A stretch of 64,000 bases of DNA from Sipunculus nudus (taxonomy: Eukaryota > Annelida > Sipuncula > Golfingiida > Sipunculidae). The stretch is from NCBI GenBank assembly GCA_026874595.1, contig CM049315.1, forward strand, positions 4,584,664 through 4,648,663, read 5' to 3'. Shown here one piece after another: positions 19,401-59,714 of the stretch (within the stretch, counting starts at the first letter, position 1; every line of letters begins with the position of its first letter). Both the position numbers and the translations under genes were made by a program. The notes beneath the pieces are model-generated. The model was not told the DNA's origin. It ran no database searches and saw only the letters and a program-made list of their open reading frames with translations.

Positions 19401-22400
19401 GATCATTGTTCACTTACTTTTAATAACAGATGAAGTTCTCTTGTTTACTTGGCCTGGTAAACTTTAACATCATCTTTATTAAATCGACAAAACTTTGTTG
19501 TCCTCCAGTATCTCTGGCACCACACATCAGAAATACCTGATTTTGGTGTTAAAATGTGAGGAATGATGCCAAGCGTGTCCTGAGGAAGGTCATTATTGAT
19601 TTTTTTCTATAAATCCTAAGGAATTTGACATTATTTTGTTAAACTTCTATTAAAGTGGCCTCAGTCAGGCATCAGTCTCACTGACTAGTCCCAGAAGGGG
19701 TAACAAACTTGTATGGAATATAACTAGATGTATAAAGTGCCTTAGATACAGTGCCTTAGATGCAGTCATATTATTTTGCATAGTGGTTGACACATAAAGA
19801 CTGATCTTAATACCTTCTCTTTTTTTGCCCACTTAAACTTCAGCTTTTGATGTAACCTTCTGATGGACAGAAACAAGTGGACAGATTTCTTTCATATTGT
19901 GCATGTGGATAGATATGGGTCAAAGGGTAAAACCTATTTAAATTAGGGTCAAGTCAATATCTCGGGATACTGTGGCATCCTTGATGTAATTTATTTCTTG
20001 TTGGTTTGTTGTTCAGAACTCTGTGTCATTTTATTTCCAGATAATCATCTGCCTTTACAGTGTGAGAAATCTATGTATATACGAATGAAGGACATTGGCC
20101 TCGACCAGAAGAAAATTGGGTATCAGTGTATGAACATCACTGGTCAACTACAAGCCTTAGACATTGATGTTAAAGAAAAAAAAAATAATACAGGTGAGGT
20201 ATTGTACAGCCAAGAGAGCACAACTTTAGATCTTCTTGAAAATAAAAATATTATGTTTAGGCCAGGAAACGTAGCAAAAAATCCTTAAAATCTAGTACAA
20301 TCTTTGTTGACCTTCGATCTTGAATTTGGATAAAAAATATAATGATTTTAGCACTTTCAAACTGTCACCTTAAAGTATTCACACTTCTTCAAATGATCAT
20401 GAAAATGAAATATTATGATCTTTACATGCATATACTTATCTCGCCATGCAAGGTATTAACAAATTCAGCTTGAGCAACTCTTCAGTCCTGTCACAAAATG
20501 TAAACCTATCTGTGCATCCCTAAAAATTCATGACTTGGAATCAGATTTGTCCAGATTGTGATAACTCCTGTGTGAAAAATTACAGGTATACAGAGGACTA
20601 CCAGTTCTGTTTTTGTGGTCTTTCAGCTGAGCTTTGACCTATTTACTTTTACTGTTGTAGATAAACCAGAAAATGGTAGATCTTTGTGTTTGGTTGCCAT
20701 GGTGAAGCCAGTAGCGCAGGAACGGGTGATTGAAATTGTGCCCCAAGACACCTTACAAAACTCCTGGGTGTCACAACACAGTATGTCTGGTCAGTTCATC
20801 TTCTGTGATCAGAGGTTTGTTATGTTTTTTTCTTCCCTGTCACACTTCGTGCTCTCTCTGTGTCCACACACACACACAGTTAATATGTATTCATGCACAT
20901 CGTTTGTATGTCTTCATGCTTAAAGTTGTACATTAACCTTGCTTTGCAAACCACACTTTTTGATCCATCATAATAATGATAATTCTGATGATAAAAACAC
21001 TCTTAGTGATTTCTGAATCTTAGGAAACAGTTATATAAATATGTAAATTAACGCATTTTCATAATGCCTGTAAATGGAGGTTGTGGTGGATATCTTAGCT
21101 TTTTGTTTTTTCAGGTTAGCCACACTCACAGGATATCTGCCTCAGGAGCAGCTCGGCCACTACCCTTATGATTACATCATACCTGAAGACTTGAAATGGG
21201 TGGCCAGTTCTCACCAGCGCAGTGAGTTTTGTTACTAGCTCCAGCTGACTTTCAGTCATGCTGAGGAAGAGGGTTGGGTCTTTGTTTATCATCCTTCTGT
21301 CTGGTATTGCAACCCTCAATTGACAGGGCACATACAGTAACCGTTAGATTTAGACAATTCTAACTCAGCATCTTTTGAGTTCCTGGGGAAACCTGAAATT
21401 AGGTCACCTTGACTTGTATTTTGTGATCTAGGTACCATCACATGAGTACAAATTTATACAAATGCTTCAGTTTCTCAATAACCAATGCATGGATTTCTGT
21501 GATCTTTGATAGCTTGTATTAAAGTAGTGGCTCCACCCATATAAAAATCATAACCATTAGACTTAGAAAGTATTTACTTTATATCCAGACAGGTCTTGGT
21601 GAAATCTCTGTGCTAACTGGAAATTTGGTAAATGTGACCGAAATTTTATACTAAAATTACAAATTGTAAAGAATGTTGAATATTGTTTAAAAATTAGGAA
21701 ACCACTAAATTACAAATATTTTTATCCTGTTTGTTGAAATGAAGCTGGATTGCCTTTAGCTCAGATATGTTTTTTGATATGTTCACATTCCCAAACATCT
21801 GTTTTCAATATCAAGAAACAAAGAAGAAGGCACATAAATATCATTAGGAGAATTAGTAAATTATTGGTCCCCAGGAACACCTAAAACACAGGTGTTTGGG
21901 TACCTGTGATGAAACACCAACTTAACATCTTCAGTTTATAAATTATTACCTGTTGCACAAATTGGTGCTGTATCTAAGCATTCCTGCCTAATATGAGTGT
22001 TTTGTAGGCTCAAAACTGAACATTTCAGGTGCTGAGCTTGTGCTGAGCAGGCCATGCAGATTGCCCCCTTTATAGAACTGTCATAAATTGCTGCCATGTT
22101 TTCCAGTTTTTTTACTCATTCCACTTTATTTCATTTGATTAAGAATTATTTGTATAGAAATATTCAGGTAATTGTTCATCATATGATATCAGTTTTTGGC
22201 TAAACAATTTTATGTTAAATGTTGTTTCATCACAGATACCCAAAACACCGAAGTTTTGGGTTTTGATAGGCATTGCTCACCTTTATCGAGGGATCACTGA
22301 AATATACCTGAATATTTTCTTTTACAGTTTTCTTTCAAAAGAGCATCCCATGGACAATATTCCGCATGTATACCAGGAACATGAACATCATATACTGCAG

Positions 22401-25400
22401 AGCCTCGTCAAACCTGGTGGCTGATCTGTGGACCAGAGAACCCAAGTACATCACCAGTGTCAATGAAGTGTTACCGTATGTATTGTATAGGTTTCTCCAA
22501 GTTTTGGAATATATCTGTATTATTATATGTATTATATACTAGTAATTGATGACGTTAGCACTTGACCATTGTCATACAAATCCTCTATGGCCATACCTCA
22601 AATATGCCCTTTTTGGTCTTGAAATATCAATAAAGATGCCAAGTGTGTCCTAAGGGGGTCATTTTCCATATTTCCCCATAAATCCTGAGAAATTTTACAT
22701 TATTTTGAATGGGCAATTGCATTTTAAACTACACATTTTAACCCAGTGGGGGTGCCATCTATTGTATGGAATGAAACTAAATAGGTTTCAAGTGCAAACA
22801 GAATAAAAACACTTAATATGCTAGTTTACTGCAAGGTATGTTGAGCAGTGCATCTGCTGTTTATATATAGATGCCACAACCCGGGGGGACCCCAGTTTTA
22901 AGTCATTTGGTTCAGCTGACATTTCTTATATAAAATCTGTAGAAATCCTTGGCCTCTGTCCCACCACTTACTCAATCTTCCTGGAGTATGGTTTTTCCCA
23001 GTTTTGCTTGAGATACCATTGGAAAGTTTGCATTATGAATTTGGGCTCCTTAGACATTGTTGCCTGGACCACACGCTGTTATACTGTAGCTGGACAATAA
23101 ATCCACATTATAACTGGCGGTGTTCCCACTCAGGCTTTTTTGTGGGGGTTCTCTTTGGCCACACCTTGGATATGCATGTTTTTGGTCTTGAATTGTCAGG
23201 AACAATGCTAAGCCTGTCCATAGGGATGTTATTTCCTCTTTTTTTCCCAAAATCTGCTGCAGTATCTGTTGGATTTTAACTGAAACTAAAGTACAAAATA
23301 ATGAACTTGTAAAAGCTAGTCCATGAAAAAAAAAGGAAAATATATGGAGGTCCCTGAACTGTCTGACCAACGGTGCCCAGTCTGCTCATCAGGTATGTAT
23401 GTTGGATCCTGTCCCTGGATATTCAGTAATGTCAGTAAAACACTAAACTTAGGGACTTACATGTCAAGTACACTAGTCTGCTGATAATGAGAGTGTGATA
23501 AGGTTGAAAGCTACAGCTATGACTAATGTAAGTCCTGAGTTTGTAGTTTTACCAATGTTACTCTTAATTTGTTCAGTTACTTTTATATGAATATAGACTC
23601 AGGCTGTGGTTACTGAACTTCTCTGTCTAAACAGCTGTCAAGTGTCACCAACAAGAGTCTGAACTTTATTTCTCATATTCTCACTAAGTTTGTTTATGGA
23701 TATTTTAAGTTTTTCTGTAATGATTGAAAAAACTATGTTCTTTCTGTTGTAACATTTGATTTGAAATATAATTTGTGTTGATTATATACAGGGGTAGATT
23801 CAGGATTCTGAGAGGGAGGTGATTACTTTTCACACAAGAGGGACTAATATTGTAAGAATATGTTCACAGCTTCATGAAAGAGGGAGGTTTGGCTTATACA
23901 TATATGGCAATGTGAAAATTTGTAATTTTCTCCCAGAAGGGGGCAGGATTTAAACCCCTGATTTCCCTCTCCCTAAGATCCTACTGTGATTCTTTCTGTG
24001 TTTAATTAATCAAAGACTTCATTGTTGTATGACTCCTCTTCCATATTAATATATTGCTTCAGATCTGTTTTCAAAATTCAGAAATGAAGAAGGCAAGCAC
24101 CTGTTAGAAGTTCAGGAAAAAGTATTTGCGGAATATCTGGCGGAGCTTGGGTTCGAAGAAGGTCACAAAGCTCAGGAGATGCTGGAAACATACAATCATG
24201 GAATTCAATGCAGCACTACCAGAGAAGTGCCTGTCCCGACAGACATTGAAGTCAAAGAAAAAAAAGTAACAATTTCTTTGGACGATCTGTGTTTTAAGAT
24301 TCATTTATCACCAGAAAGTGCCCAGTCAGAAATTGGCAGGCTGAATGCTGAAATAGAATGTCGGATGAAAAATACAGTACTGAACGGCCATGTTGATAGC
24401 ACAGTACCTACACTAGGTTCTATGACTGGAGGTTCGCAAAGTGTTGAATTATTAACTCAAACACACAAGAATGGTTATCACTCTGAGTACACGTTGCCTG
24501 AGCTTTCTTGTGATTCTGTGGGACCTCCAGTGAAAGTTAAGTGTGGACAGTTAAACAAGAGGCAGAACGGTCAAACAGATCACACGCCCAATGGACTGCT
24601 TACCCAGACGTCATTACTATGGCATTCTGAAGCTGAACCTGCTAAACAGGAGCTGATGACAAACAATGGCTGGTCCAGTCAGAATGGACTGCTGCAGCTG
24701 GCTTACTGCTCACAAGATGTCTTACAAGATACTGCTGTAGATTCTACAGGCTGCGTCAGTGGCTGCGTGCATGGCTCAGGGTCGTTATCAAGCCCTAACA
24801 GCTCAGAGACTGGCTCAGTCTTCAGTTCGCAGGTAGGTTAAGTGCTGCACAAGGGTGCAGTCGCAGTGTTTGCATTCACAAACACAGATATATGTCTCCT
24901 CCCATTTGCCTCATCTCTCCATTTGAATTCATATTATGCAGTACTTAGTATTATTGGAATTACAGAAATTGTAGCTTTCCACAAATTTAACCTTGAAGAT
25001 AGAGGTCAAAGTCACAAGGTTTGGAAGTCTGATCAAATCTTGTCAGAAACAGTTCGTGAGTCAAATTTTGGAAAAAAAATGGAATATTTTAAAAGTTAGG
25101 TTCAAATCATTTTTATTTCAGGAGATTTGACCTTAAAGATGAAGGGCACCAGTTTTTAACTTTTTCTTAAAAACAATGTGTGTATCAGTTTTCAGGAGAA
25201 AAGGATGCAGTGCTTTAAAAGTTATTGCATTCATAAGAGTGTTTTGTTTCACGAAAGTCTACTTGTTTTTCTGTTGGCAGGATAATGCAAAAACTATAAG
25301 TCAGTGAAGTTTCTGTTAAATTTGAGTGCAGGTCTGGTTATAGGGGCAGACTAAATAGCATTGTTATGCTGTGAAGAAAGACAAATAATCATTTATACAT

Positions 25401-40400: not shown

Positions 40401-43400
40401 TATAACAGCTGAGCATCGTGACCCATAGGTCCCTTGTTTTTTACCTCTGACCTTTCCTCTCTGCCCAGCGTCCATTTGTGTGTCTGTTTCCACACATAAA
40501 CCCACATATCTCGGGAACTGTTTGACTGATCAGACTAAAAATTTTGCACAAATGTAGCCCTTTGATAGCTTTATAACATACACTAAAAATGGTGGCGCCA
40601 CCTGCAACCATTTTTGCACAGCGTCCATCTGTTCATTTACTTTGGGATAAAATCACTCATATCTCAGCAGTGGTTTGACTTTTCCACCTGAAATTTTGCA
40701 GGTTTATACATCCTGGACAGCTTTCTCGATTTTATGAAGGTGGCGCCACCTACATTCAGGTTTACTCTGCAGACATCCAAGCTCATATCTCGGGAACCGT
40801 TTGACCGATTGGGCCAAAATTTTGCTTGTGTATAGATCTCACATAGCTCTTTACATAGTCAAAACTGGTGGCGCCACCTGCAACCATTTATGCACAGCAT
40901 CCATCTGTTCATCTGCCTTTGGATAAAATCACTCATATCTCAGCAGTGGTTTGACTTTTCCACCTGAAATTTTGCAGGTTTATACATCCTGGACAGCTCT
41001 CTTAATTTTATGACAGGTGGCGCCACCTACATTTAGGTTTACTCTGCAGACATCCAAACTCACATCTCGGGAACCGTTTGATCGATTGGGCCAAAATTCT
41101 GCTTGTGTATAGATCTCACATAGCTCTTCATCATAGTCAAAACTGGTGGCGCCATCTGCAACCACTTATGCACAGTGTCCATCTGTTCATCTGCCTTGGG
41201 ATAAAATCACTCATATCTCAGAAGTGGTTTGACTTATCCGCCTGAAATTTTTCAGGTTTATACATCCCTGACAGCTCTCTTGATTTTATGACAGGTGGCA
41301 CCACCTTCATTCAGGTTTACTCTGCAGACATCCAAATTCATATCTCGGGAACCGTTTGACCTATTGGGCCAAAATTCTGCTTGTGTATAGATCTCACTTA
41401 GCTCTTCATCATAGGAAAACTGGTGGGGCCACCTGCAACCACTCCATCCATGTTAATATGCAACACACCTCACTCTTTTCCCCTTGCCACTTAATCCATG
41501 CCTCACTTCACCCATCCAACTCTGATTTCTGCGGATACACATAGTCGCTTGTTGACTACCCATATTCTAGTTTTAAAATGTCCTAGTCTGAAACTTGCAG
41601 GTCCGAAACATCCATTTTGCTGAAATCATAATGACTAAGGTAGATATGCAGGACTTAAGAGGATCAATATTAAATTTAAAAAATAAACCTCCATTCATAC
41701 TCCCAATCTTTGCACAGGTTCGCATTAGGCCTGTAGGCCTTGTTATATATTATTTATTTAGACTGTTGTCAGTCATTTTCATTGTCATTTATTTCCATAA
41801 ACCTGTTCTAGGTAATTGTCTGTATGAGAAGAACCTGTCACCATTCTGATTGCACTGGTACACTGTATTTTGTAATTCGAGGATCTTTTGTGTTCAATAC
41901 ACAACTAGAATACGGGTAGTCAACAAGCGACTATGTGTATCCGCCAAAATCAGAGTGGAACAGGTGAAGTGAGGCATGGATTGAGTGGCAAGGGGAAATG
42001 GAGTGTTGCATATTAGCATGGATGTCTGCAGCTGAAATGTGTATGTAGGTTGCGCCACCTGTCACAAAATCCAGAAAGCTGTCCAAGTTGTATACATATG
42101 CAAAATTTAAGGCAGATAAATCAAACCACTACATGTATATGAGTGATTTTAGCCCGTGGCAGACAAACAGGTTGACACTGTGCAAAAATGGTTGCAGGTG
42201 GCCCCCACCAGTTTTGCTTATGCTTAAGAGCTATGTGAGATCTATACACATGCAAAACTTTGGCCTAATCGGTCAAACGATTCCCGAGATATGAGCTTGG
42301 ATGTCTGCAGCGTAAACTAGAATGTAGGTGGTGCCATCTGTCAAAAAATCAAGAGAGCTGTCCAGATTGTATAAACCTGCAAAATTTTAGGCAGATATGT
42401 CAAACCACTGTCGAGATATGAGTGATTTTATCCCAAGGCAGACAAACAGACGGATGCTGAGCAAAATGGCTGCAGGTGGCGCCACCAGTTTTCCGTATGA
42501 TGAAGAACTACGTGAGATCTATACACATGCAAATTTTTGGCCCAGTAAGCAAATGGTTCCCGAGATATGAGCTTGGATGTCTGCAGCGTAAACGTGAATG
42601 TAGGTGGCGCCATCTGTCATAATATCAAGAAAGACATCCAGGATGTATACACATGCCAAATTTCAGGTGAATTAATCAAACTGCAGAGATATGAGTGATT
42701 TAAACCCAAGGCAGACGAACAGATGGACACTGTGCAAACATGGTTGCAGGTGGTGCCACCATTTTTTGTGTATGTTGTAAAGCTATCCAAGGGCTACATT
42801 TGTATAAAAATTTTTTACTGATCTGTCAAACAGTTCACAAGATATGTGGGTTTATGTGTGGAAACAGACGCACAAATGGATGCAGAGCACAGAGGAAAGG
42901 TCAGAGGTCAAAACAAATCGGGGCGCAGCAGTTCACATGTGACTCGAACATAATCCCAGGTTTTGTAAAATTCCACCCAGGGGTTACAGAGGAGTTCTCC
43001 AGACACCTACGCGGCTGCAATGGGGGCGGTGGGCTGAAAACATAGATAAACAATTACAGATATGCATTAGGTGTTCTGTAAGGAATAGATATGAAAGTAG
43101 CAGTCAGCCTCTGTCATACCACCCTATTTACAGGGTGTGTACTGCCAGCAGGAGGTCATGGACCAGGACGGCAGTGATCTGTAGTAGTCAGCCTCTGTCA
43201 TACCTGACTTTGTATTCACAGGGTGTATACAGCCAGCAGGAGGCCATGGACCAGGACAGCAGTGATCTGTAGTAGTCAGCTTCTGTCATATCTGACATGT
43301 ATTTACAGGGTGTATACAGCCAGCATCAGGCCATGGACCAGGACAGCAGTGATCTGTAGTAGTCAGCCTCTGTCATATCTGACATGTATTTACAGGGTGT

Positions 43401-46400
43401 ATACAGCAAGCAGGAGGCCATGGACCAGGACAGCTGTGATCTGTAGTAGTCAGCCTCTGTCATACCTGACTTTGTATTTACAGGGTGTGTACTGCCAGCA
43501 GGAGGCCATGGACCTGAAAGCAGTGATCTGTAGTAGTCAGCTTCTGTCATATCTGACATGTATTTACAGGGTGTATACAGCAAGCAGGAGGCCATGGACC
43601 AGGACAGCAGTGATCTGTAGTAGTCAGCATCTGTCATACCTGACTTTGTATTTACAGGGTGTATACAGCCAGCAGGAGGCCATGGACCAGGACAGCAGTG
43701 ATCTGTAGTAGTCAGCCTCTGTCATACCTGACTTTGTATTTACAGGGTGTATACAGCCAGCAGGAGGCCATGGACCAGGACAGCAGTGATCTGTAGTAGT
43801 CAGCCTCTGTCATACCTGACTTTGTATTTACAGGGTGTGTACAGCCAGCATCAGGCCATGGACCAGGACAGCAGTGATCTGTAGTAGTCAGCATCTGTCA
43901 TACCTGACTTTGTATTTACAGGGTGTATACAGCCAGCAGGAGGCCATGGACCAGGACAGCAGTGATCTGTAGTAGTCAGCCTCTGTCATACCTGACTTTG
44001 TATTTACAGGGTGTGTACAGCCAGCATCAGGCCATGGACCAGGACAGCAGTGATCTGTAGTAGTCAGCATCTGTCATACCTGACTTTGTATTTACAGGGT
44101 GTATACAGCCAGCAGGAGGCCATGGACCTGAAAGCAGTGATCTGTAGTAGTCAGCTTCTGTCATATCTGACATGTATTTACAGGGTGTATACAGCAAGCA
44201 GGAGGCCATGGACCAGGACAGCAGTGATCTGTAGTAGTCAGCCTCTGTCATACCTGACTTTGTATTTACAGGGTGTATACAGCCAGCAGGAGGCCATGGA
44301 CCAGGACAGCAGTGATCTGTAGTAGTCAGCCTCTGTCATACCTGACTTTGTATTTACAGGGTGTATACAGCCAGCAGGAGGCCATGGACCAGGACAGCAG
44401 TGATCTGTAGTAGTCAGCATCTGTCATACCTGACTTTGTATTTACAGGGTGTATACAGCCAGCAGGAGGCCATGGACCAGGACAGCAGTGATCTGTAGTA
44501 GTCAGCCTCTGTCATACCTGACTTTGTATTTACAGGGTGTGTACAGCCAGCATCAGGCCATGGACCAGGACAGCAGTGATCTGTAGTAGTCAGCCTCTGT
44601 CATACCTGACTTTGTATTTACAGGGAGTATACAGCCAGCAGGAGGCCATGGACCAGGACAGCAGTGATCTGTAGTAGTCAGCCTCTGTCATACCTGACTT
44701 TGTATTTACAGGGTGTGTACAGCCAGCATCAGGCCATGGACCAGGACGGCAGTGATCTGTAGTAGTCAGCCTCTGTCATACCTGACTTTGTATTTACAGG
44801 GTGTATACAGCCAGCAGGAGGCCATGGACCAGGACAGCAGTGATCTTTAGTAGTCAGCCTCTGTCATACCTGACTTTGTATTTACAGGGTGTGTACAGCC
44901 AGCATCAGGCCATGGACCAGGACAGCAGTGATCTGTAGTAGTCAGCCTCTGTCATACCTGACTTTGTATTTACAGGGAGTATACAGCCAGCAGGAGGCCA
45001 TGGACCAGGACAGCAGTGATCTGTAGTAGTCAGCTTCTGTCATACCTGACTTTGTATTTACAGGGTGTGTACTGCCAGCAGGAGGCCATGGACCAGGACA
45101 GCAGTGATCTGTAGTAGTCAGCCTCTGTCATACCTGACTTTGTATTTACAGGGTGTATACAGCCAGCAGGAGGCCATGGACCAGGACAGCAGTGATCTGT
45201 AGTAGTCAGCCTCTGTCATACCTGACTTTGTATTTACAGGGTGTATACAGTCAGCAGGAGGCCATGGACCTGAAAGCAGTGATCTGTAGTAGTCAGCCTC
45301 TGTCATACCTGACTTTGTATTTACAGGGTGTATACAGCCAGCAGGAGGCCATGGACCTGAAAGCAGTGATCTGTAGTAGTCAGCTTCTGTCATACCTGAC
45401 TTTGTATTTACAGGGTGTATACAGCCAGCAGGAGGCCATGGACCTGAAAGCAGTGATCTGTAGTAGTCAGCTTCTGTCATACCTGACTTTGTATTTACAG
45501 GGTGTATACAGCCAGCAGGAGGCCATGGACCAGGACAGCAGTGATCTGTAGAAGTCAGCTTCTGTCATACCTGACTTTGTATTTACAGGGTGTATACAGT
45601 CAGCAGGAGGCCATGGACCAGGACAGCAGTGATCTGTAGTAGTCAGCCTCTGTCATACCTGACTTTGTATTTACAGGGTGTATACAGTCAGCAGGAGGCC
45701 ATGGACCTGAAAGCAGTGATCTGTAGTAGTCAGCCTCTGTCATACCTGACTTTGTATTTACAGGGTGTATACAGCCAGCAGGAGGCCATGGACCTGAAAG
45801 CAGTGATCTGTAGTAGTCAGCCTCTGTCATACCTGACTTTGTATTTACAGGGTGTATACAGCCAGCAGGAGGCCATGGACCTGAAAGCAGTGATCTGTAG
45901 TAGTCAGCTTCTGTCATACCTGACTTTGTATTTACAGGGTGTATACAGCCAGCAGGAGGCCATGGACCAGGACAGCAGTGATCTGTAGAAGTCAGCTTCT
46001 GTCATACCTGACTTTGTATTTACAGGGTGTATACAGCCAGCAGGAGGCCATGGACCTGAAAGCAGTGATCTGTAGTAGTCAGCTTCTGTCATACCTGACT
46101 TTGTATTTACAGGGTGTATACAGCCAGCAGGAGGCCATGGACCAGGACAGCAGTGATCTGTAGAAGTCAGCTTCTGTCATACCTGACTTTGTATTTACAG
46201 GGTGTATACAGTCAGCAGGAGGCCATGGACCAGGACAGCAGTGATCTGTAGTAGTCAGCCTCTGTCATACCTGACTTTGTATTTACAGGGTGTATACAGT
46301 CAGCAGGAGGCCATGGACCTGAAAGCAGTGATCTGTAGTAGTCAGCCTCTGTCATACCTGACTTTGTATTTACAGGGTGTATACAGCCAGCAGGAGGCCA

Positions 46401-49400
46401 TGGACCTGAAAGCAGTGATCTGTAGTAGTCAGCTTCTGTCATACCTGACTTTGTATTTACAGGGTGTATACAGCAAGCAGGAGGCCATGGACCTGAAAGC
46501 AGTGATCTGTAGTAGTCAGCTTCTGTCATACCTGACTTTGTATTTACAGGGTGTATACAGCCAGCAGGAGGCCATGGACCTGAAAGCAGTGATCTGTAGT
46601 AGTCAGCCTCTGTCATACCTGACTTTGTATTTACAGGGTGTATACAGCCAGCAGGAGGCCATGGACCTGAAAGCAGTGATCTGTAGTAGTCAGCTTCTGT
46701 CATACCTGACTTTGTATTTACAGGGTGTATACAGCCAGCAGGAGGCCATGGACCAGGACAGCAGTGATCTGTAGTAGTCAGCCTCTGTCATACCTGACTT
46801 TGTATTTACAGGGTGTATACAGCCAGCAGGAGGCCATGGACCAGGACAGCAGTGATCTGTAGTAGTCAGCTTCTGTCATACCTGACTTTGTATTTACAGG
46901 GTGTATACAGCCAGCAGGAGGCCATGGACCAGGACAGCAGTGATCTGTAGTAGTCAGCTTCTGTCATACCTGACTTTGTATTTACAGGGTGTATACAGCC
47001 AGCAGGAGGCCATGGACCAGGACAGCTGTGATCTGTAGTAGTCAGCCTCTGTCATACCTGACTTTGTATTTACAGGGTGTATACAGCAAGCAGGAGGCCA
47101 TGGACCTGAAAGCAGTGATCTGTAGTAGTCAGCCTCTGTCATACCTGACTTTGTATTTACAGGGTGTGTACAGCCAGCAGGAGGCCATGGACCTGAAAGC
47201 AGTGATCTGTAGTAGTCAGCCTCTGTCATACCTGACTTTGTATTTACAGGGTGTATACAGCCAGCAGGAGGCCATGGACCAGGACAGCAGTGATCTGTAG
47301 TAGTCAGCCTCTGTCATACCTGACTTTGTATTTACAGGGTGTGTACTGCCAGCAGGAGGCCATGGACCTGAAAGCAGTGATCTGTAGTAGTCAGCCTCTG
47401 TCATACCTGACTTTGTATTTACAGGGTGTATACAGCAAGCAGGAGGCCATGGACCAGGACAGCAGTGATCTGTAGTAGTCAGCCTCTGTCATACCTGACT
47501 TTGTATTTACAGGGTGTATACAGCCAGCAGGAGGCCATGGACCAGGACAGCAGTGATCTGTAGTAGTCAGCCTCTGTCATACCTGACTTTGTATTTACAG
47601 GGTGTATACAGCCAGCAGGAGGCCATGGACCAGGACAGCAGTGATCTGTAGTAGTCAGCCTCTGTCATACCTGACTTTGTATTTACAGGGTGTATACAGT
47701 CAGCAGGAGGCCATGGACCAGGACAGCAGTGATCTGTAGTAGTCAGCCTCTGTCATACCTGACTTTGTATTTACAGGGAGTATACAGCCAGCATCAGGCC
47801 ATGGACCAGGACAGCAGTGATCTGTAGTAGTCAGCTTCTGTCATACCTGACTTTGTATTTACAGGGTGTATACAGCAAGCAGGAGGCCATGGACCAGGAC
47901 AGCAGTGATCTGTAGTAGTCAGCATCTGTCATACCTGACTTTGTATTTACAGGGAGTATACAGCCAGCAGGAGGCCATGGACCAGGACAGCAGTGATCTG
48001 TAGTAGTCAGCCTCTGTCATACCTGACTTTGTATTTACAGGGTGTATACAGCCAGCAGGAGGCCATGGACCAGGACAGCTGTGATCTGTAGTAGTCAGCA
48101 TCTGTCATACCTGACTTTGTATTTACAGGGAGTATACAGCCAGCAGGAGGCCATGGACCAGGACAGCAGTGATCTGTAGTAGTCAGCTTCTGTCATACCT
48201 GACTTTGTATTTACAGGGTGTATACAGCCAGCAGGAGGCCATGGACCAGGACAGCAGTGATCTGTAGTAGTCAGCCTCTGTCATACCTGACTTTGTATTT
48301 ACAGGGTGTATACAGCCAGCAGGAGGCCATGGACCAGGACAGCAGTGATCTGTAGTAGTCAGCATCTGTCATACCTGACTTTGTATTTACAGGGTGTATA
48401 CAGCCAGCAGGAGGCCATGGACCAGGACAGCAGTGATCTGTAGTAGTCAGCTTCTGTCATACCTGACTTTGTATTTACAGGGTGTATACAGCCAGCAGGA
48501 GGCCATGGACCAGGACAGCAGTGATCTGTAGTAGTCAGCATCTGTCATACCTGACTTTGTATTTACAGGGTGTATACAGCCAGCAGGAGGCCATGGACCA
48601 GGACAGCAGTGATCTGTAGTAGTCAGCATCTGTCATACCTGACTTTGTATTTACAGGGTGTATACAGCCAGCAGGAGGCCATGGACCAGGACAGCAGTGA
48701 TCTGTAGTAGTCAGCATCTGTCATACCTGACTTTGTATTTACAGGGTGTATACAGCCAGCAGGAGGCCATGGACCAGGACAGCAGTGATCTGTAGTAGTC
48801 AGCATCTGTCATACCTGACTTTGTATTTACAGGGTGTATACAGCCAGCAGGAGGCCATGGACCAGGACAGCAGTGATCTGTAGTAGTCAGCATCTGTCAT
48901 ACCTGACTTTGTATTTACAGGGTGTATACAGCCAGCAGGAGGCCATGGACCAGGACAGCAGTGATCTGTAGTAGTCAGCCTCTGTCATACCTGACTTTGT
49001 ATTTACAGGGTGTATACAGCCAGCAGGAGGCCATGGACCAGGACAGCAGTGATCTGTAGTAGTCAGCATCTGTCATACCTGACTTTGTATTTACAGGGTG
49101 TATACAGCCAGCAGGAGGCCATGGACCAGGACAGCAGTGATCTGTAGTAGTCAGCATCTGTCATACCTGACTTTGTATTTACAGGGTGTATACAGCCAGC
49201 ATCAGGCCATGGACCAGGACAGCAGTGATCTGTAGTAGTCAGCCTCTGTCATACCTGACTTTGTATTTACAGGGTGTATACAGCCAGCAGGAGGCCATGG
49301 ACCAGGACAGCAGTGATCTGTAGTAGTCAGCCTCTGTCATACCTGACTTTGTATTTACAGGGAGTATACAGCCAGCAGGAGGCCATGGACCAGGACAGCA

Positions 49401-52400
49401 GTGATCTGTAGTAGTCAGCTTCTGTCATACCTGACTTTGTATTTACAGGGTGTATACAGCCAGCAGGAGGCCATGGACCAGGACAGCAGTGATCTGTAGT
49501 AGTCAGCCTCTGTCATACCTGACTTTGTATTTACAGGGAGTATACAGCCAGCAGGAGGCCATGGACCAGGACGGCAGTGATCTGTAGTAGTCAGCTTCTG
49601 TCATACCTGACTTTGTATTTACAGGGAGTATACAGCCAGCAGGAGGCCATGGACCAGGACGGCAGTGATCTGTTGTAGTCAGCCTCTGTCATACCTGACT
49701 TTGTATTTACAGGGTGTATACAGCCAGCAGGAGGCCATGGACCAGGACAGCAGTGATCTGTAGTAGTCAGCCTCTGTCATACCTGACTTTGTATTTACAG
49801 GGAGTATACAGCCAGCAGGAGGCCATGGACCAGGACAGCAGTGATCTGTAGTAGTCAGCTTCTGTCATACCTGACTTTGTATTTACAGGGAGTACAGCCA
49901 GCAGGAGGCCATGGACCAGGACAGCAGTGATCTGTAGTAGTCAGCTTCTGTCATACCTGACTTTGTATTTACAGGGAGTATACAGCCAGCAGGAGGCCAT
50001 GGACCAGGACAGCAGTGATCTGTAGTAGTCAGCCTCTGTCATACCTGACTTTGTATTTACAGGGAGTATACAGCCAGCAGGAGGCCATGGACCAGGACAG
50101 CAGTGATCTGTAGAAGTCAGCTTCTGTCATACCTGACTTTGTATTTACAGGGTGTATACAGCCAGCAGGAGGCCATGGGCCAGGACAGCAGTGATCTGTA
50201 GTAGTCAGCCTCTGTCATACCTGACTTTGTATTTACAGGGAGTATACAGCCAGCAGGAGGCCATGGACCAGGACAGCAGTGATCTGTAGTAGTCAGCCTC
50301 TGTCATACCTGACTTTGTATTTACAGGGAGTATACAGCCAGCAGGAGGCCATGGACCAGGACAGCAGTGATCTGTAGAAGTCAGCTTCTGTCATACCTGA
50401 CTTTGTATTTACAGGGAGTATACAGCCAGCAGGAGGCCATGGGCCAGGACAGCAGTGATCTGTAGTAGTCAGCCTCTGTCATACCTGACTTTGTATTTAC
50501 AGGGAGTATACAGCCAGCAGGAGGCCATGGACCAGGACAGCAGTGATCTGTAGTAGTCAGCTTCTGTCATACCTGACTTTGTATTTACAGGGTGTGTACT
50601 GCCAGCAGGAGGCCATGGACCTGAAAGCAGTGATCTGTAGTAGTCAGCCTCTGTCATACCTGACTTTGTATTTACAGGGAGTATACAGCCAGCAGGAGGC
50701 CATGGACCAGGACAGCAGTGATCTGTAGTAGTCAGCTTCTGTCATACCTGACTTTGTATTTACAGGGAGTATACAGCCAGCAGGAGGCCATGGACCAGGA
50801 CAGCAGTGATCTGTAGTAGTCAGCATCTGTCATACCTGACTTTGTATTTACAGGGTGTATACAGCCAGCAGGAGGCCATGGACCAGGACAGCAGTGATCT
50901 GTAGTAGTCAGCCTCTGTCATACCTGACTTTGTATTTACAGGGTGTGTACAGCCAGCAGGAGGCCATGGACCAGGACAGCAGTGATCTGTAGTAGTCAGC
51001 ATCTGTCATACCTGACTTTGTATTTACAGGGAGTATACAGCCAGCAGGAGGCCATGGACCAGGACAGCAGTGATCTGTAGTAGTCAGCCTCTGTCATACC
51101 TGACTTTGTATTTACAGGGAGTATACAGCCAGCATCAGGCCATGGACCAGGACAGCAGTGATCTGTAGTAGTCAGCTTCTGTCATACCTGACTTTGTATT
51201 TACAGGGAGTATACAGCCAGCAGGAGGCCATGGACCAGGACAGCAGTGATCTGTAGTAGTCAGCCTCTGTCATACCTGACTTTGTATTTACAGGGAGTAT
51301 ACAGCCAGCAGGAGGCCATGGACCAGGACAGCAGTGATCTGTAGAAGTCAGCTTCTGTCATACCTGACTTTGTATTTACAGGGTGTATACAGCCAGCAGG
51401 AGGCCATGGACCAGGACAGCAGTGATCTGTAGTAGTCAGCCTCTGTCATACCTGACTTTGTATTTACAGGGAGTATACAGCCAGCAGGAGGCCATGGGCC
51501 AGGACAGCAGTGATCTGTAGTAGTCAGCCTCTGTCATACCTGACTTTGTATTTACAGGGAGTATACAGCCAGCAGGAGGCCATGGACCAGGACAGCAGTG
51601 ATCTGTAGTAGTCAGCTTCTGTCATACCTGACTTTGTATTTACAGGGTGTGTACTGCCAGCAGGAGGCCATGGACCTGAAAGCAGTGATCTGTAGTAGTC
51701 AGCCTCTGTCATACCTGACTTTGTATTTACAGGGAGTATACAGCCAGCAGGAGGCCATGGACCAGGACAGCAGTGATCTGTAGTAGTCAGCTTCTGTCAT
51801 ACCTGACTTTGTATTTACAGGGAGTATACAGCCAGCAGGAGGCCATGGACCAGGACAGCAGTGATCTGTAGTAGTCAGCTTCTGTCATACCTGACTTTGT
51901 ATTTACAGGGAGTATACAGCCAGCAGGAGGCCATGGACCAGGACAGCAGTGATCTGTAGTAGTCAGCATCTGTCATACCTGACTTTGTATTTACAGGGTG
52001 TATACAGCCAGCAGGAGGCCATGGACCAGGACAGCAGTGATCTGTAGTAGTCAGCCTCTGTCATACCTGACTTTGTATTTACAGGGTGTGTACAGCCAGC
52101 AGGAGGCCATGGACCAGGACAGCAGTGATCTGTAGTAGTCAGCATCTGTCATACCTGACTTTGTATTTACAGGGAGTATACAGCCAGCAGGAGGCCATGG
52201 ACCAGGACAGCAGTGATCTGTAGTAGTCAGCCTCTGTCATACCTGACTTTGTATTTACAGGGAGTATACAGCCAGCATCAGGCCATGGACCAGGACAGCA
52301 GTGATCTGTAGTAGTCAGCTTCTGTCATACCTGACTTTGTATTTACAGGGAGTATACAGCCAGCAGGAGGCCATGGACCAGGACAGCAGTGATCTGTAGT

Positions 52401-54392
52401 AGTCAGCATCTGTCATACCTGACTTTGTATTTACAGGGTGTATACAGCCAGCAGGAGGCCATGGACCAGGACAGCAGTGATCTGTAGTAGTCAGCCTCTG
52501 TCATACCTGACTTTGTATTTACAGGGTGTGTACAGCCAGCAGGAGGCCATGGACCAGGACAGCAGTGATCTGTAGTAGTCAGCATCTGTCATACCTGACT
52601 TTGTATTTACAGGGAGTATACAGCCAGCAGGAGGCCATGGACCAGGACAGCAGTGATCTGTAGTAGTCAGCCTCTGTCATACCTGACTTTGTATTTACAG
52701 GGAGTATACAGCCAGCATCAGGCCATGGACCAGGACAGCAGTGATCTGTAGTAGTCAGCTTCTGTCATACCTGACTTTGTATTTACAGGGTGTGTACAGC
52801 CAGCAGGAGGCCATGGACCAGGACAGCAGTGATCTGTAGTAGTCAGCCTCTGTCATACCTGACTTTGTATTTACAGGGAGTATACAGCCAGCAGGAGGCC
52901 ATGGACCAGGACAGCAGTGATCTGAGTCAGCACCTCAGTGACACCCAGCAGTCCTACACCCAGTCACTGGAGGACATGGAGCAGGTAGGACCTTGCATAA
53001 CACTCAGTAAGACAGTGGTCTTAATTCACAAGTGTCTTATGAGTCAGGTTAGTTATAACTAATTTTGATGCTTTTGGTTCACCCAAGGGTGGTCTCAATA
53101 GACAGGTGGTCTCAATAGATAGGTGGTCTTTTAGCCCAAGTGGTCATGTCTTACTACTGAGCTGCTACCTTTGGACGCAAGATTGGAATCTGACTGTGAC
53201 AGGTGTTGACTAATGCCAGACTTGAACTCAGATTCTTTAATGTGAAGATTACCAGATACTCATGCTGTCTGGTATCAGGGTTGCTTCTGTCTAATTGGGG
53301 ACAGGGATGGTTTCAGAACTTGGAGATTGTAGATGGCAGGGTTTCTGATAAGCACTGCTGGTCTCTCAGGGAAGAACCATTTGTGAACAAGTGTGCTTTG
53401 CAAAATTTTCCCAGTTCTGAAAGTAAGGTGGCACACCCTAGTGCCATTTGCCCCTCTGACATTAGAAAGTCTGTTGAGATATCAGGGTGCTATGCTTAGT
53501 AATGATGAGAACTGCATAATAAAGCTCAATGTGGCTGCAAATCGTTCATTTTTGACAATGACTCATGACCTACAGGTACAGTGTCACTTAAAATAAACCA
53601 GACCAATTGTTAGAAATGTGTGTTTTTTCAAACAACACCTGAACATGCATAAGAAAAAATACATTCTAAATTAGCCTATTGGTGAATCACCCTGCATGTT
53701 TGAGCGATTTCTGACTGCATGGATACAAGCATGTCTTGCACAGGTCATTGGATGATAGCCAACTTTTAATCAACTCAGGAAATGACTTGTTACTATAGAG
53801 AATGATTTACACTTTAGTTTGTGAGCTCACATGTATTATTTTGTGTTAAATCCTCACTGGTAGCCTTATGTTAAGGAAACTGGCGGTTTATCATGATATT
53901 GCTGCAATAGGATGGATGACTGTAGCAGTGGATTACCCTGTATGACATGCGTCATTAATAAAGTAGACTTTATCGGTCTAGTATGAATGCCTTCAGAGTT
54001 ATGTATTCACAGCTAGGCACATTAGGCTAGGGTGTGAGACATGCACATATGATACTTAAGGTAGATAAGTTACATAAGAAATAGAGGTGTTTCCCGTCAT
54101 ACCAAAAATATTATTACCTCAGAGTATATTGATGTTCTTTGTTTCATAAAAATCATGTTAACTTTAAAAAATGATTTTCTTGATCAGAGAAGAATACTGA
54201 TAACTTAATGATAGATTTTCTACTCCACAGGTGCGAAGTAATTGTGAATCAACAGGAAGCAGCCCACTTGGAGCTCTCTACAAAGTTCATCTGACTGAAT
54301 CCTGTCAAGATATTCCTATGAAATATCACCTTTCCCCCCCCCTAAGAGGTAACATGGCAGTCCACGGGTCCAATCAAACCTCAGCATACTAG
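13396..54392 (+). CDS. bHLH-PAS transcription factor, Met/gce-like; 5'-partial gene, ten exons
   Basis: Joined exons 13396-13478, 14396-14485, 18940-19078, 20041-20193, 20661-20814, 21115-21221, 22328-22475, 24082-24832, 52877-52984 and 54231-54392 total 1895 nt: two nt of a split codon, 630 codons and a TAG stop. Every intron is GT-AG and every phase matches. Residues about 24-150 form PAS-A (FLMVVNRSG, YVSDGISKMLGHSQ, IIHKEDHEILRRQL). Residues about 190-290 form PAS-B (FCDQRLATLTGYLPQEQLG, FRMYTRNMNIIYCRAS). Residues 292-630 are a Ser/Gln/Asn-rich tail of the kind used for transactivation. Such proteins act in the nucleus as dimers on DNA, some binding ligands in PAS-B. The CDQR...GY, MYTRN.NIIY and VNEVLPNEEGK patterns recall insect juvenile-hormone receptor Met/gce; NCOA or another bHLH-PAS branch is possible. 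No bHLH exon was found, so the gene starts upstream. The intron before the penultimate exon is 28 kb of repeats. Confidence 0.85.
14049..14190 (+). repeat. second copy of the intron end, acceptor decayed
   Basis: Same order of blocks as 13203-13395, but the acceptor region reads CACTTCATTG instead of CACTCCAGTG. It lies in the next intron, upstream of exon 14396. Confidence 0.65.
14396..14485 (+). CDS. exon: start of PAS-A
   Basis: 90 bp, phase 0 at both ends, acceptor CTTCCAG and donor CAG|GTAAGA. Encodes RMDCFLMVVNRSGVLVYVSD followed by GISKMLGHSQ, the first strands and helix of a PAS fold. A 26-bp minisatellite begins about 37 bp after the donor. Confidence 0.92.
14523..14653 (+). repeat. 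26-bp minisatellite, left part
   Basis: About five copies of AACCAGTATTATTAACCACA plus GTATTT, starting 37 bp after the donor of exon 14396-14485. Interrupted by the 1280-bp insertion at 14654 and resumed at 15934. Confidence 0.93.
14654..15933. mobile_element. 1280-bp TA-flanked DNA transposon, non-autonomous
   Basis: The left end CCGTTTTCCCCTGTGGAT and the inverted right end CTGTTTCCCCCTTTGGAT form imperfect 18-bp terminal inverted repeats with 3 mismatches. Both sides are flanked by TA. Removing the element and one TA restores a perfect minisatellite unit (CAGTATT-TA-ACCAG). This is the signature of Tc1/mariner/pogo-type insertion. No transposase reading frame is visible. The interior has a GC-rich stretch near 15190-15420. 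Confidence 0.85.
15934..17135 (+). repeat. 26-bp minisatellite, right part
   Basis: About 46 copies of the same 26-bp unit, mainly TATTATTAACC versus TATAATTAACC variants. This is the rest of the array cut by the insertion at 14654-15933. Confidence 0.95.
17293..17914 (+). repeat. 48-bp minisatellite
   Basis: About 13 nearly identical copies of a 48-bp unit beginning AGCTATTACACCTCTTGAAT. The first copy lacks two bases. Located in the intron between 14485 and 18940. Confidence 0.96.
17915..18939. other. intron sequence without recognised features
   Basis: Unique AT-rich sequence between the 48-bp minisatellite and exon 18940. Short open frames here (17881-18163) run out of the repeat and show no known motif. 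Confidence 0.6.
18940..19078 (+). CDS. exon: PAS-A core
   Basis: 139 bp, acceptor TTTTGCAG, donor AAAAG|GTCAGT, phase 0 in and phase 1 out. Encodes VDVMGSSVYNIIHKEDHEIL then RRQLQPDD, the PAS helix carrying the usual I-H-x-x-D-H motif. Confidence 0.93.
19495..19650 (+). repeat. short interspersed repeat, copy 1 of 3 in successive introns
   Basis: GATGCCAAGCGTGTCCTGAG, ATAAATCCTAAGGAATTTGA, CATTATTTTG. Related copies are at 22600-22720 (GATGCCAAGTGTGTCCTAAG) and 23160-23280 (AATGCTAAGCCTGTCCATAG). Confidence 0.6.
20041..20193 (+). CDS. exon: end of PAS-A
   Basis: 153 bp, acceptor TTATTTCCAG, donor ACAG|GTGAGG, phase 1 in and out. Encodes LQCEKSMYIRMKDIG and GYQCMNITGQLQAL, the closing strands of PAS-A. 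It ends in DIDVKEKKNNT, coded across an A-run at the exon end that is prone to slippage. Confidence 0.92.
20661..20814 (+). CDS. exon: inter-PAS linker and first strand of PAS-B
   Basis: 154 bp, acceptor TGTTGTAG, donor CAGAG|GTTTGT, phase 1 in and phase 2 out. Encodes SLCLVAMVKPVAQERVIEI, then SMSGQFIFCDQR, the strand that opens PAS-B (G-x-F/I-x-x-C-D-Q-R). Confidence 0.93.
21115..21221 (+). CDS. exon: PAS-B helices
   Basis: 107 bp, acceptor TTTTTTCAG, donor CGCA|GTGAGT, phase 2 in and phase 1 out. Encodes LATLTGYLPQEQLGHYPYDY and IIPEDLKWVASSHQR, matching the G-Y-x-x-E/D-x-x-G and D-x-x-x-V pattern of PAS-B. A family D element remnant starts about 15 bp after the donor. Confidence 0.94.
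21237..21430 (+). mobile_element. family D remnant 15 bp after an exon donor
   Basis: AGCTGACTTTCAGTCATGCT, GGGTCTTTG, ACAGGGCACA, CCTGAAATTAGGTCAC follow the order seen at 28536-28740, with the (GTCC) tract shortened. Confidence 0.65.
22328..22475 (+). CDS. exon: C-terminal strands of PAS-B
   Basis: 148 bp, acceptor TTTTACAG, donor TTACC|GTATGT, phase 1 in and phase 2 out. Encodes IPWTIFRMYTRNMNIIYCRA, then ASSNLVADLWTREPKYITSV and NEVLP, the G-strand region of PAS-B. Another frame is open for longer here (HILQSLVKPGG) but has no PAS similarity and does not join to its neighbours. Confidence 0.92.
22600..22720 (+). repeat. short interspersed repeat, copy 2 of 3
   Basis: TTTTTGGTCTTGAAATATCA, GATGCCAAGTGTGTCC, ATAAATCCTGAGAAATTTTA; same order as at 19495. 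Confidence 0.6.
23160..23280 (+). repeat. short interspersed repeat, copy 3 of 3
   Basis: TTTTTGGTCTTGAATTGTCA, AATGCTAAGCCTGTCC; the most diverged copy. Confidence 0.5.
24082..24832 (+). CDS. exon: large exon after PAS-B, start of C-terminal tail
   Basis: 751 bp, acceptor AAAATTCAG, donor TCGCAG|GTAGGT, phase 2 in and phase 0 out. It begins NEEGKHLLEVQEKVFAEYL, so the junction reads VNEVLPNEEGK, as expected just after PAS-B in Met-type proteins. An acceptor 19 bp upstream (24061-24062) gives an in-frame stop and was not used. The remainder is polar and low in conserved motifs, rich in Ser, Gln, Thr and Asn, ending TGSVFSSQ. A second DIxVKEKK peptide lies near the A-run at about 24245-24267. 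Confidence 0.92.
25564..28200 (+). mobile_element. family A element copy A3, complete (2637 bp)
   Basis: Same 5' hairpin, (GTCC)n tract, two-part core and tail CAGCTGAGCGCCGTGACCCA...CTTG. It sits in T runs inside another fragment at 25404-25563 that begins TTTTAGCCAACCTGTGAGCT with GTCGTCCGTC runs. Confidence 0.9.
28534..32290 (+). mobile_element. family D element, split by A4
   Basis: The 5' end at 28536 reads AGCTCAGCTGACTTTCAGTC, then GTCCG/GGCCG runs and a core up to 28868. The core resumes at 31522 with AGGTCAAAAGGTCAAAGGTC and continues in 100-190-bp units with AGGTCA motifs to about 32290. No clear tail was seen, so the 3' end is uncertain. Confidence 0.7.
28869..31521 (+). mobile_element. 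family A element copy A4, complete (2653 bp), nested in family D
   Basis: AGCTCAGCTGAC...GGTCCCTTG inserted between CATAATTTTT and TTTTTAGGTC. The family D core is continuous across the insertion. Confidence 0.9.
33309..34495 (+). mobile_element. family B element, complete, with a compound tail
   Basis: 5' hairpin TATCCGCCAAAAC...GTTTTGCGGATA. Tandem core with GGTGGCGCCACC at 33619, 33768, 33897, 34046 and 34176 (spacing 149/129/149/130). 3' GGCGGATA and stem-loop GTAGTCACTTGTCGACTAC. Instead of ending in CTAG it continues CCCATGGGTCACTTG at 34481-34495, a family A-like tail. Confidence 0.8.
34496..34846. repeat. tandem fragments with AAACTTCTTCTCTGAAACCA-type units
   Basis: Two or more related units (34540 and 34710: CTTCTTCTC...AAACCA..GGCCAAA). 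Related units also occur at 28255-28390, following A3. Family unknown. Confidence 0.55.
34847..35628 (+). repeat. 391-bp tandem duplication
   Basis: 34847-35237 and 35238-35628 are nearly identical, with a few substitutions (CATTGCAGAAGTCGCG versus CGTTGCAGAAGTTGCG). Both begin AACTTAGCCAGTTTGCTGAA. Confidence 0.92.
35640..36575. other. intronic sequence with short internal repeats only
   Basis: TTTATAGCTTTGGCAGACTGCC-like motifs recur at about 36370, 36455 and 36515. No coding potential supported. Confidence 0.5.
36576..37883 (+). repeat. about 651-bp tandem duplication containing a family B 5' end
   Basis: 36576-37226 and 37227-37883 share CAGTGCAGCCAGGTACAGGT, CTGCCTTCCTCACCTAAGCC and the family B hairpin (37065 and 37720). 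The second copy has a 4-bp gain and is cut by A5 at 37884. Confidence 0.9.
37720..41570 (+). mobile_element. family B element split by A5; left arm of an inverted repeat
   Basis: Parts 37720-37883 and 40437-41570. GGTGGCGCCACC-centred core units, then GCGGATACACATAGTCGCTT...GACTACC and CTAG at 41567-41570 followed by TTTT. Confidence 0.85.
37884..40436 (+). mobile_element. family A element copy A5, complete (2553 bp), nested in family B
   Basis: Inserted between GCGCCCTCATTTTT and TTTTTTACCTCTGACC. The uninterrupted family B copy at 33457-33480 reads GCGCCCCGATTTTGTTTTTA then CCTCTGACC, giving the empty site. Confidence 0.9.
41571..41904. other. 334-bp spacer between inverted family B arms
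   Basis: Unique sequence; a short open frame (41595-41849) has no recognised motif. Confidence 0.5.
41905..43045 (-). mobile_element. family B element, reverse orientation; right arm of an inverted repeat
   Basis: On the - strand the 3' tail is CTAG at 41905-41908, preceded by GTAGTC...GACTAC and GGCGGATA. The core and the ACCTCTGACCTTTCC segment mirror 40437-41570. The 5' hairpin is missing: the copy stops at CTGAAAACATAG. Confidence 0.85.
43097..52923 (+). repeat. 88-bp satellite array made of a duplicated intron-exon junction
   Basis: About 112 tandem units (9827 bp at 88 bp each; not counted one by one). A unit runs GTAGTAGTCAGCCTCTGTCA, TACCTGACTTTGTATTTACAG (branch-like CTGAC and acceptor), then 47 bp matching the start of exon 52877 up to GATCT. 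Variants: GGTGTATAC, GGTGTGTAC or GGAGTATAC after the acceptor; CAGCAGGAGG or CAGCATCAGG; GACCAGGACAG (88 bp) or GACCTGAAAG (87 bp); CAGCCTCTG, CAGCTTCTG or CAGCATCTG. The first unit is the most diverged, and the last merges into the real exon. Long open frames on both strands are a by-product of the 87-bp units. Confidence 0.97.
52877..52984 (+). CDS. exon: penultimate exon; parent of the 88-bp repeat
   Basis: 108 bp, 36 codons, phase 0 at both ends, acceptor TTTACAG, donor GAGCAG|GTAGGA. Encodes GVYSQQEAMDQDSSDL then SQHLSDTQQSYTQSLEDMEQ. Its first 47 bp and the intron end before it are the last unit of the 88-bp array. The sequence leaves the repeat after GATCTG, running on as AGTCAGCACC where the array has TAGTAGTCAG. 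Phase fits the exon at 24832 exactly, implying a 28,044-bp intron. Confidence 0.85.
52985..54230. other. last intron, no repeat recognised
   Basis: Unique sequence between the penultimate and terminal exons. The open frame 53203-53499 has no motif or coding-like neighbours. Confidence 0.55.
54231..54392 (+). CDS. terminal exon with stop codon
   Basis: Acceptor CTACTCCACAG. Opens in phase 0 as VRSNCESTGSSPLGALYKVH and continues about 53 codons to TAG at 54390. The codons include an in-frame run of nine C around 54334-54342, where a one-base error would change the C-terminus. An internal GAG|GTAACA site just after it could be a donor, in which case the gene continues and the last 16 codons are intron. 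A poly(A) signal 500 bp on favours this as the last exon. Confidence 0.65.
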   Translation: MRSNCESTGSSPLGALYKVHLTESCQDIPMKYHLSPPLRGNMAVHGSNQTSAY

Positions 54393-58080: not shown

Positions 58081-58530
58081 AGTCCTCAAAACTATAACAA
58101 TAGGGTTTATGAAGTCCTCAAATCTATAACAGCAGGGTTTATGAAGTCCTCAAATCTATAACAGCAGGGTTTATGAAGTCCTCAAATCTATAACAGCAGG
58201 GTTTATAAAATCCTCAAAACTATAACAGCAGGGTTTATAAAATCCTCAAAACTATAACAGCAGGGTTTATAAAGTCCTCATAACTACAACAGCAGGATTT
58301 ATAAAATCCTCAAAACTATAACAGCAGGGTATATCAAGTCCTCAAACCTATAACAGCAGGGTTTATAAAATCCTCAAAACTATAACAGCAGGGTTTATAA
58401 AGTCCTCAAAACTATAACAGCAGGGTATATCAAGTCCTCAAAACTATAACAGCAGGGTTTATAAAGTCCTCAAAACTATAACAGCAGGGTTTATAAAATC
58501 CTCAAAACTATAACAGCAGGGTTTATCAGG
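58081..58530 (+). repeat. 32-bp minisatellite
   Basis: About 14 copies of a unit like TCCTCAAAACTATAACAGCA plus GGGTTTATAAAG, with scattered substitutions. Confidence 0.95.
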
Positions 58531-59516
58531 TCTTTACATGACCAATGGCATGGACTACTATAACTGTGTTAGTTTTTGTGGTAGGAATCGGTTTTAGAAT
58601 CATGTTTGATGAGTTAAGGATAGAAAGTGACTGATGATCAGTAATTAATCAGTTATTTCATGTACCATCTATATTACCATAAAATCTGAAATACTGAGTA
58701 AATTCAGTCCAACTTGTACACCTCACTGAAAATTTAAGGTAAAGGATAAACTTAGTGCTGTTTGCTTTTTAGTGCCAGTATTTCTTATATCTCTGACAGA
58801 ATACTTCATGGGGATAACATGACTATTTTGATGTGCATACATCATCGTTTATGATCAGTTATGCAAAAAATGCAATCAATTTAACCAATTTTGAAAGAAA
58901 ATGACAAATCATCAATATAATCAAATAATTGGTGCACCACAAGTTTGTGTATCAGCACAAGGTTATGGAATTGTGAAATATGAAAGGGTGTCTTTGCTTT
59001 CAGAATAGGTAAAGGTCCTTCAAATATTGAAAAAAATAAACAACTAGAACAGGTTTTGAAATAACTGATTGATAAAATATCATCAGATGCTTTTGTCATA
59101 CCTTCCCTGAACATGGTAAAACATCATGAACATCCAAACACTAACAGACCTAGAGAATTGTAACTTGATAGCCAGATCGGTCCTTGTGAAATCTCCTTGG
59201 AGACCTAAAATTTGGTCATGGTCTGCTGTGAAACAATGAATTTCTGCTATTTAAGCTGGCAAGACATGAGGAATCATTACCGTCTGTTTTGGGTTTGTCA
59301 TTGTCACTTTCTGTCTGAAATCTGTAAAGTTCTCAAACTGACAGGTGGTAATAGTGACACACATCAGCTGTGATTTTAAACTGAGTGTCATGATCTCTGG
59401 GTCACTAGATGTGTGCGTCACTGGTTTAGAATTGTAGAATATGTCATTCTTACAGTATTATGCCACATGTTACAGAATGAATGCTGCTTTTGTTATGATT
59501 TAAAGTTGTGATTACT

Positions 59517-59714
59517 GATTATGGGCCACATAATTGCTGATTATGGGCCACATAATTGCTGATTATGGGCCACGTAATTGCTGATTATGAGCCATGTAAT
59601 TGCTGATTATGGGCCACTTAATTGCTGATTATGGGAGACATATTTGCTGATTATGGGCCACGTACTTGCTGATTATGGGCCACGTAATTGCTGATTATGG
59701 GCCATGTAATTGCT
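59517..59714 (+). repeat. 22-bp minisatellite
   Basis: About nine copies of AATTGCTGATTATGGGCCAC plus AT/GT. Confidence 0.93.

Follow-up and report, generated by a model that had tools for sequence, protein, structure and literature searches.

The 64,000-nt stretch of Sipunculus nudus DNA analyzed here (the window) holds, on its forward strand, an 88-bp tandem array that is probably a very long boundary minisatellite of the "mirage" kind in a gene resembling methoprene-tolerant (Met), tolerated by its host, with splicing that pairs a strong donor with the nearest acceptor. The array extends from 43097 to 52924 (TRF: period 88, 112.0 copies, 96% matches, score 17962). Cutting it at a fixed internal word gave 111 decoy units plus the edge of the modelled exon that begins at 52877, which is unit 112. 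The first-pass annotation had described about 111 decoy 3' splice sites abutting the true exon as its last unit, and both statements were borne out. In each unit, 36 bp from the end of the intron are followed by the opening 48 bp of the exon at 52877-52984 (the earlier count was 47 bp) and then by TAGT. On the gene model, the repeat unit thus crosses from intron into exon of the host gene. The decoys are mostly 88 bp long (86 units), with 23 units of 87 bp and one each of 86 bp and 84 bp, and there are 43 distinct forms among the 112 units.

The acceptor signals of the true exon were retained in nearly all decoys. The intron part of the unit contains CTGAC and TTTACAG. The AG was intact in all 112 units and CTGAC, which is branch-point-like and had been correctly described as part of the unit, was kept in 111; it was lost only in the leftmost unit (43102..43185, forward strand, 84 bp), the most diverged decoy. 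The true acceptor region (52841..52876, forward strand) is in register with the array units, and its sequence over 20 intron and 2 exon nucleotides was common to 105 of the 111 decoys. The third exon base was also equal to that of the true exon in 32 of the decoys sharing these 22 nucleotides; this base is T in 79 of the 111 decoys versus A in the true exon. All 48 exon-derived base pairs matched the true exon in 23 decoys, and 12 were identical to the true boundary from -36 to +48. In the last decoy unit (52753..52840, forward strand) lies the rival acceptor closest to the true one; its use would, by arithmetic, produce an exon of 196 nt.

The resemblance of the array to the exon is not due to chance. 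We searched the whole 1.43-Gb assembly with a 33-base probe from the exon part of the unit, allowing up to two mismatches, and found 92 forward matches in the array (these counts are lower bounds) and none elsewhere. A reversed-pattern control of the same probe had no matches genome-wide. To put the array in context, we surveyed 20 stretches of the genome (200 kb) for TRF rows with a period of at least 20 and at least 5 copies. There were eight such rows, two of them overlapping, with at most 19.9 copies, and seven such rows in the 64-kb window. Based on this survey, the length of the 88-bp array is unusual, though minisatellites are common. Neither AATAAA nor ATTAAA occurred within the array.

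The window is rich in tandem arrays, with other minisatellites at 17290-17914 (48-bp units), 58081-58526 (32-bp units), and 59511-59714 (22-bp units). Two 26-bp minisatellites (14518-14653 and 15934-17123) lie in the intron after the PAS-A exon described below. The first begins 33 bp past the end of that exon (14485), and its consensus unit contains TACTAAC, which is branch-point-like, and CCACAG, which is acceptor-like. There is also a repeat of approximately 280 bp, present as two or three tandem copies at 12-719, 33605-34374, and 40585-41443, with consensus units that contain GGTGGCGCCACC.

The host gene belongs to the bHLH-PAS class and, by best database similarity, is a relative of Met. 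We modelled nine forward-strand exons in the window, with boundaries set by eye. Those at 14396..14485 (PAS-A) and 18940..19078 (PAS-A and linker) were supported by Pfam, that at 20041..20193 (between PAS-A and PAS-B) by a PDB match, and the three PAS-B exons at 20661..20814, 21115..21221, and 22328..22475 by Pfam. They are followed by a large exon at 24082..24832 that runs from the end of PAS-B onward and is supported by alignment, the 108-bp exon at 52877..52984, and a last coding exon at 54231..54392 that ends in TAG. We started the large exon at 24082 because the acceptor at 24062 was out of phase with the end chosen for the preceding exon. The nine exons are phase-consistent and encode 603 residues plus a stop; the model leaves out the exons between the bHLH domain and PAS-A. 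A bHLH exon lies approximately 17.4 kb upstream of the window.

The joined exons contained PAS domains (Pfam; PAS_11, 1.5e-19) and had PDB matches that included HIF-1alpha (the best, 5.5e-25), EPAS1, BMAL1, and CLOCK. When the bHLH exon was included, the best match was the Met protein of Platynereis dumerilii (4.5e-36, 30% identity), one of two proteins at E<=0.001 among 3000 candidates, and the alignment extended from the bHLH domain to just past PAS-B. Without the bHLH exon, the sole match of the joined exons was a HIF-1alpha-like protein, and searches with single exons gave no significant match from which to name the gene. Orthologues of Met have been reported from an annelid and from molluscs (PMC5127642).

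The C-terminal exons fit the gene model by their splice signals, phase, and base composition. Residues 480-603 had no homologue among 135 candidates (none at E<=10), so the case for use of these exons is made by those three features. As the first-pass annotation stated, the exon ending at 24832 ends in phase 0 and the one at 52877 opens in phase 0. The lack of a detected homologue for the tail would also be expected if the exon at 52877 were unused in most transcripts, for example because transcripts end by reading past 24832, in which case the decoys would have no true competitor. Retention of the intron after 24832 (24833-24841) gives an in-frame stop after two codons (VG stop) and, if it occurs, would provide an alternative short C-terminus. 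Against this explanation, the donor at 24832 (CAG|GTAGGT) is strong, with a score of 6.12 on the scale described below, the exon at 52877 is phase 0-0 and has a high GC content (0.583, versus 0.363 in the intron), and the exon after it matches in phase and contains a stop. We therefore think it unlikely that the exon is generally bypassed, and we infer that the exon at 52877-52984 is used and the decoys skipped.

Use of a decoy acceptor is predicted to cause premature termination of translation. We determined the frame outcomes assuming that 24832 is joined to a decoy acceptor and that the resulting exon runs to the donor at 52984. Ninety of the 111 decoy acceptors added 16 residues and a stop, the outcome that had been claimed for every 88-bp unit. 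For these 90, the claimed loss of the final 73 residues is also right: the true tail has 89 residues, 16 of which are shared. The other 21 acceptors added 13 (one decoy), 17 (one), 45 (eight), 74 (six), 103 (three), 132 (one), or 161 (one) residues, and in 19 of these 21 units the exon part carries a change that shifts the frame. The stop triplet that follows the exon part was kept in 110 of the 111 units. In all 111 cases the predicted stop preceded the 52984 junction by 145-9800 nt. In many animals, a stop well upstream of a junction triggers nonsense-mediated decay. The position of the predicted stops makes decay of mis-spliced mRNA plausible, as had been proposed.

We also considered whether the array could be a coding repeat and rejected this: the frameshifted 87-bp units read into the next unit and then reach a stop in a later one. 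Runs of 87-bp units at 45118-47313 are open in one frame per strand, with a 29-residue repeat. These open reading frames might be reported as proteins by ORF finders and are likely spurious.

Splicing to the true exon most likely persists, because the units hold weak donor-like sites and the nearest strong donor is at 52984. We scored donors on a scale built from base frequencies, on which the best possible score is 8.66. The donor at 52984 scored 4.65. The best donor-like site in the units scored 2.99 (16 copies), and otherwise the scores were no higher than -0.31 (63 copies at that value). Between 25000 and 43000 in this intron, 10 of the 1009 GT sites scored at least 2.99. Three of the eight modelled donors of the gene were below 2.99 (20814, 21221, and 22475, with scores of 0.66, 1.84, and -1.17), indicating that the scale is rough or that those exon boundaries are wrong.

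If no cassette forms, use of a decoy can only extend the true exon, to 196 nt for the nearest decoy and by roughly 88 nt more for each one beyond it, up to nearly 10 kb. We suggest that the splicing machinery would still reach the true exon: 52984 is the closest strong donor, and the acceptor nearest to it across the exon would be favored. Exons defined by distant decoys would measure from many hundreds of nucleotides to almost 10,000 nt. In genes with long introns, splice-site pairs that are closest across the exon are favored in a survey of alternative sites (PMC9225289). In section 9 of that survey, for acceptors with long introns on both sides, the preference for the upstream site is reduced and not plainly reversed, and on this account a substantial share of splicing could leak to upstream decoys. 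We therefore expect the nearest decoys to see some use. Splicing to the closest few would result either in a premature stop with decay of the mRNA or in a protein lacking the 73-residue tail, for which no relatives were detected.

Weak poison cassettes are possible in part of the array. The donor-like sequence GGGTGTGT, which is weak, directly follows the acceptor in 16 units. In 15 of the 16, it lies 88-89 nt past the acceptor of the previous unit and could close a stretch of that length, and 14 of these 15 stretches contain an in-frame stop. Recursive splicing at the donor-like site past the acceptor was rejected by reasoning, as one base would be added at each step and the frame would be broken.

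These features bear on the proposal that the array is a functional acceptor sink or a bank of poison exons, in which decoys divert a set share of transcripts and the length of the array tunes receptor output. The 111 decoy AGs in a shared phase, the stop triplet in 110 of the 111 units with every predicted stop preceding the junction by 145 nt or more, and the 15 possible cassettes of 88-89 nt, 14 with an in-frame stop, are what such a sink would have. The donor-like sites of the units are weak, however, and mutations were not significantly depleted in the acceptor or branch-point columns. There were 19 distinct change events across the decoys, a number too small for a strong test in either direction; the counts set aside events seen only in the leftmost unit (unit 0). 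The eight core splice columns (CTGAC and CAG) had 0 of 18 events (p 0.40) and the acceptor region had 2 of 19 (p 0.40), neither a significant depletion with so few events. The intron part had 4 of 18 (p 0.15) and the exon part 12 of 18 (p 0.35), again few events. The stop triplet was altered in one of the 111 units. There was no sign of selection on the decoys, and with so few events this result speaks neither for nor against function. We consider a functional sink distinctly unlikely. Of the first-pass interpretation, the anatomy of the decoys and the premature stop upon their use stand, whereas the proposed role as a sink, tuner, or source of isoforms found no direct support in these tests.

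RNA folding that would hide the decoys was considered as well and was not supported. A four-unit stretch folded no better than shuffled sequences (98 of 100 shuffles were at least as stable; z +2.18), and the fold of the true exon region was ordinary compared to shuffles (z +0.72).

The units most like the true exon are next to it. The mean number of mismatches to the true exon, by quarter of the array from left to right, was 3.71, 3.18, 1.54, and 1.70, and likeness to the exon rose rightward (Spearman -0.46, p 5e-7). Also clustered at the right of the array was a synonymous variant of the first codon, with A (Mann-Whitney p 2.5e-8). We found six runs of at least four identical units at a fixed lag. 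Four of them fall within units 84-109, next to the exon. The longest is 87-92 = 100-105, and the others are 100-104 = 105-109, 87-91 = 105-109, and 84-87 = 96-99. The remaining two runs are farther away (26-30 = 33-37 and 62-65 = 63-66). When the unit order was shuffled 200 times, identical runs reached at most 4. The rightward gradient and the runs near the exon suggest that the true exon edge evolves in concert with the array or recently served as its source.

A duplication made during assembly could also account for the identical blocks close to the right end (five units at 87-91, 100-104, and 105-109), and the copy number in the assembly may be off. That the array as a whole is an artefact, a repeat collapsed or wrongly expanded, strikes us as highly improbable given 43 distinct unit forms, the absence of any N in the window, and a contig of 79.6 Mb. 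The array is shorter than common long reads.

We infer that the array arose within the gene itself. A stretch over the intron end and exon start of the Met-like bHLH-PAS gene would have been tandemly duplicated, and the array would then have expanded to approximately 111 copies through slippage or unequal exchange, with most of the recent growth next to the exon. The 7-base sequence AGTCAGC occurs at each end of the duplicated stretch, once in the intron and once in the exon (at 52925), and these two copies may have facilitated the initial duplication.

Arrays of this kind are known from amphioxus. PMC3087553 and PMC3902484 describe mirage minisatellites in Adh3, the globin genes BflGb6 and BflGb9, and TnC, with similar repeats in PGBD5. 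In these, as in the array described here, the tandem unit includes a junction of intron and exon from the host gene, and many units keep splice signals. The closest likeness is to BflGb6, in which the 3' end of the intron and the start of exon 2 are repeated. The amphioxus mirages reportedly leave regular splicing undisturbed. The fallback of the first-pass annotation, that the array is tolerated junk, is the best fit.

Two other systems are similar in some respects. Like the decoy exons of detained introns (OGT and others; PMC12017769), the units here are sites in a long intron that would rarely be used and that would lead to a premature stop if included. The OGT-type decoy exons are cassettes with both an acceptor and a donor, whereas the donor-like sites here are weak and the best are in only 16 units, 15 of which could close an 88-89-nt cassette. 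Tandem duplication of splice signals is, in PMC3087553, a proposed source of new introns and likewise produces tandem copies of a boundary; unlike in intron gain, no array unit has become an exon of the gene model.

The anatomy of the array is already known from amphioxus, and, compared to BflGb6, the copy number and the host gene are new. The two BflGb6 haplotypes have 6 and 3 units (PMC3087553), so that 111 decoys represent the mirage type at about 20 times that copy number or more. The host is, unlike those in amphioxus, a Met-like, hormone-receptor-like gene, and it lies in a 1.43-Gb genome. We think it very unlikely that array length is a heritable dial on a hormone receptor, with length alleles setting receptor dose or the ratio of C-terminal isoforms. 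If it were, every extra copy of the boundary would bring one more acceptor, some units would also supply a donor that closes a poison cassette of 88-89 nt, and part of the Met pre-mRNA would be diverted into isoforms with premature stops. The locus is a natural experiment in splice-site choice, with 111 acceptors, 105 of them like the true one over 20+2 nt, whose distance from a single donor grows in steps of about 88 nt. RNA reads at this Met-like locus could measure acceptor use as a function of exon length in a living animal.
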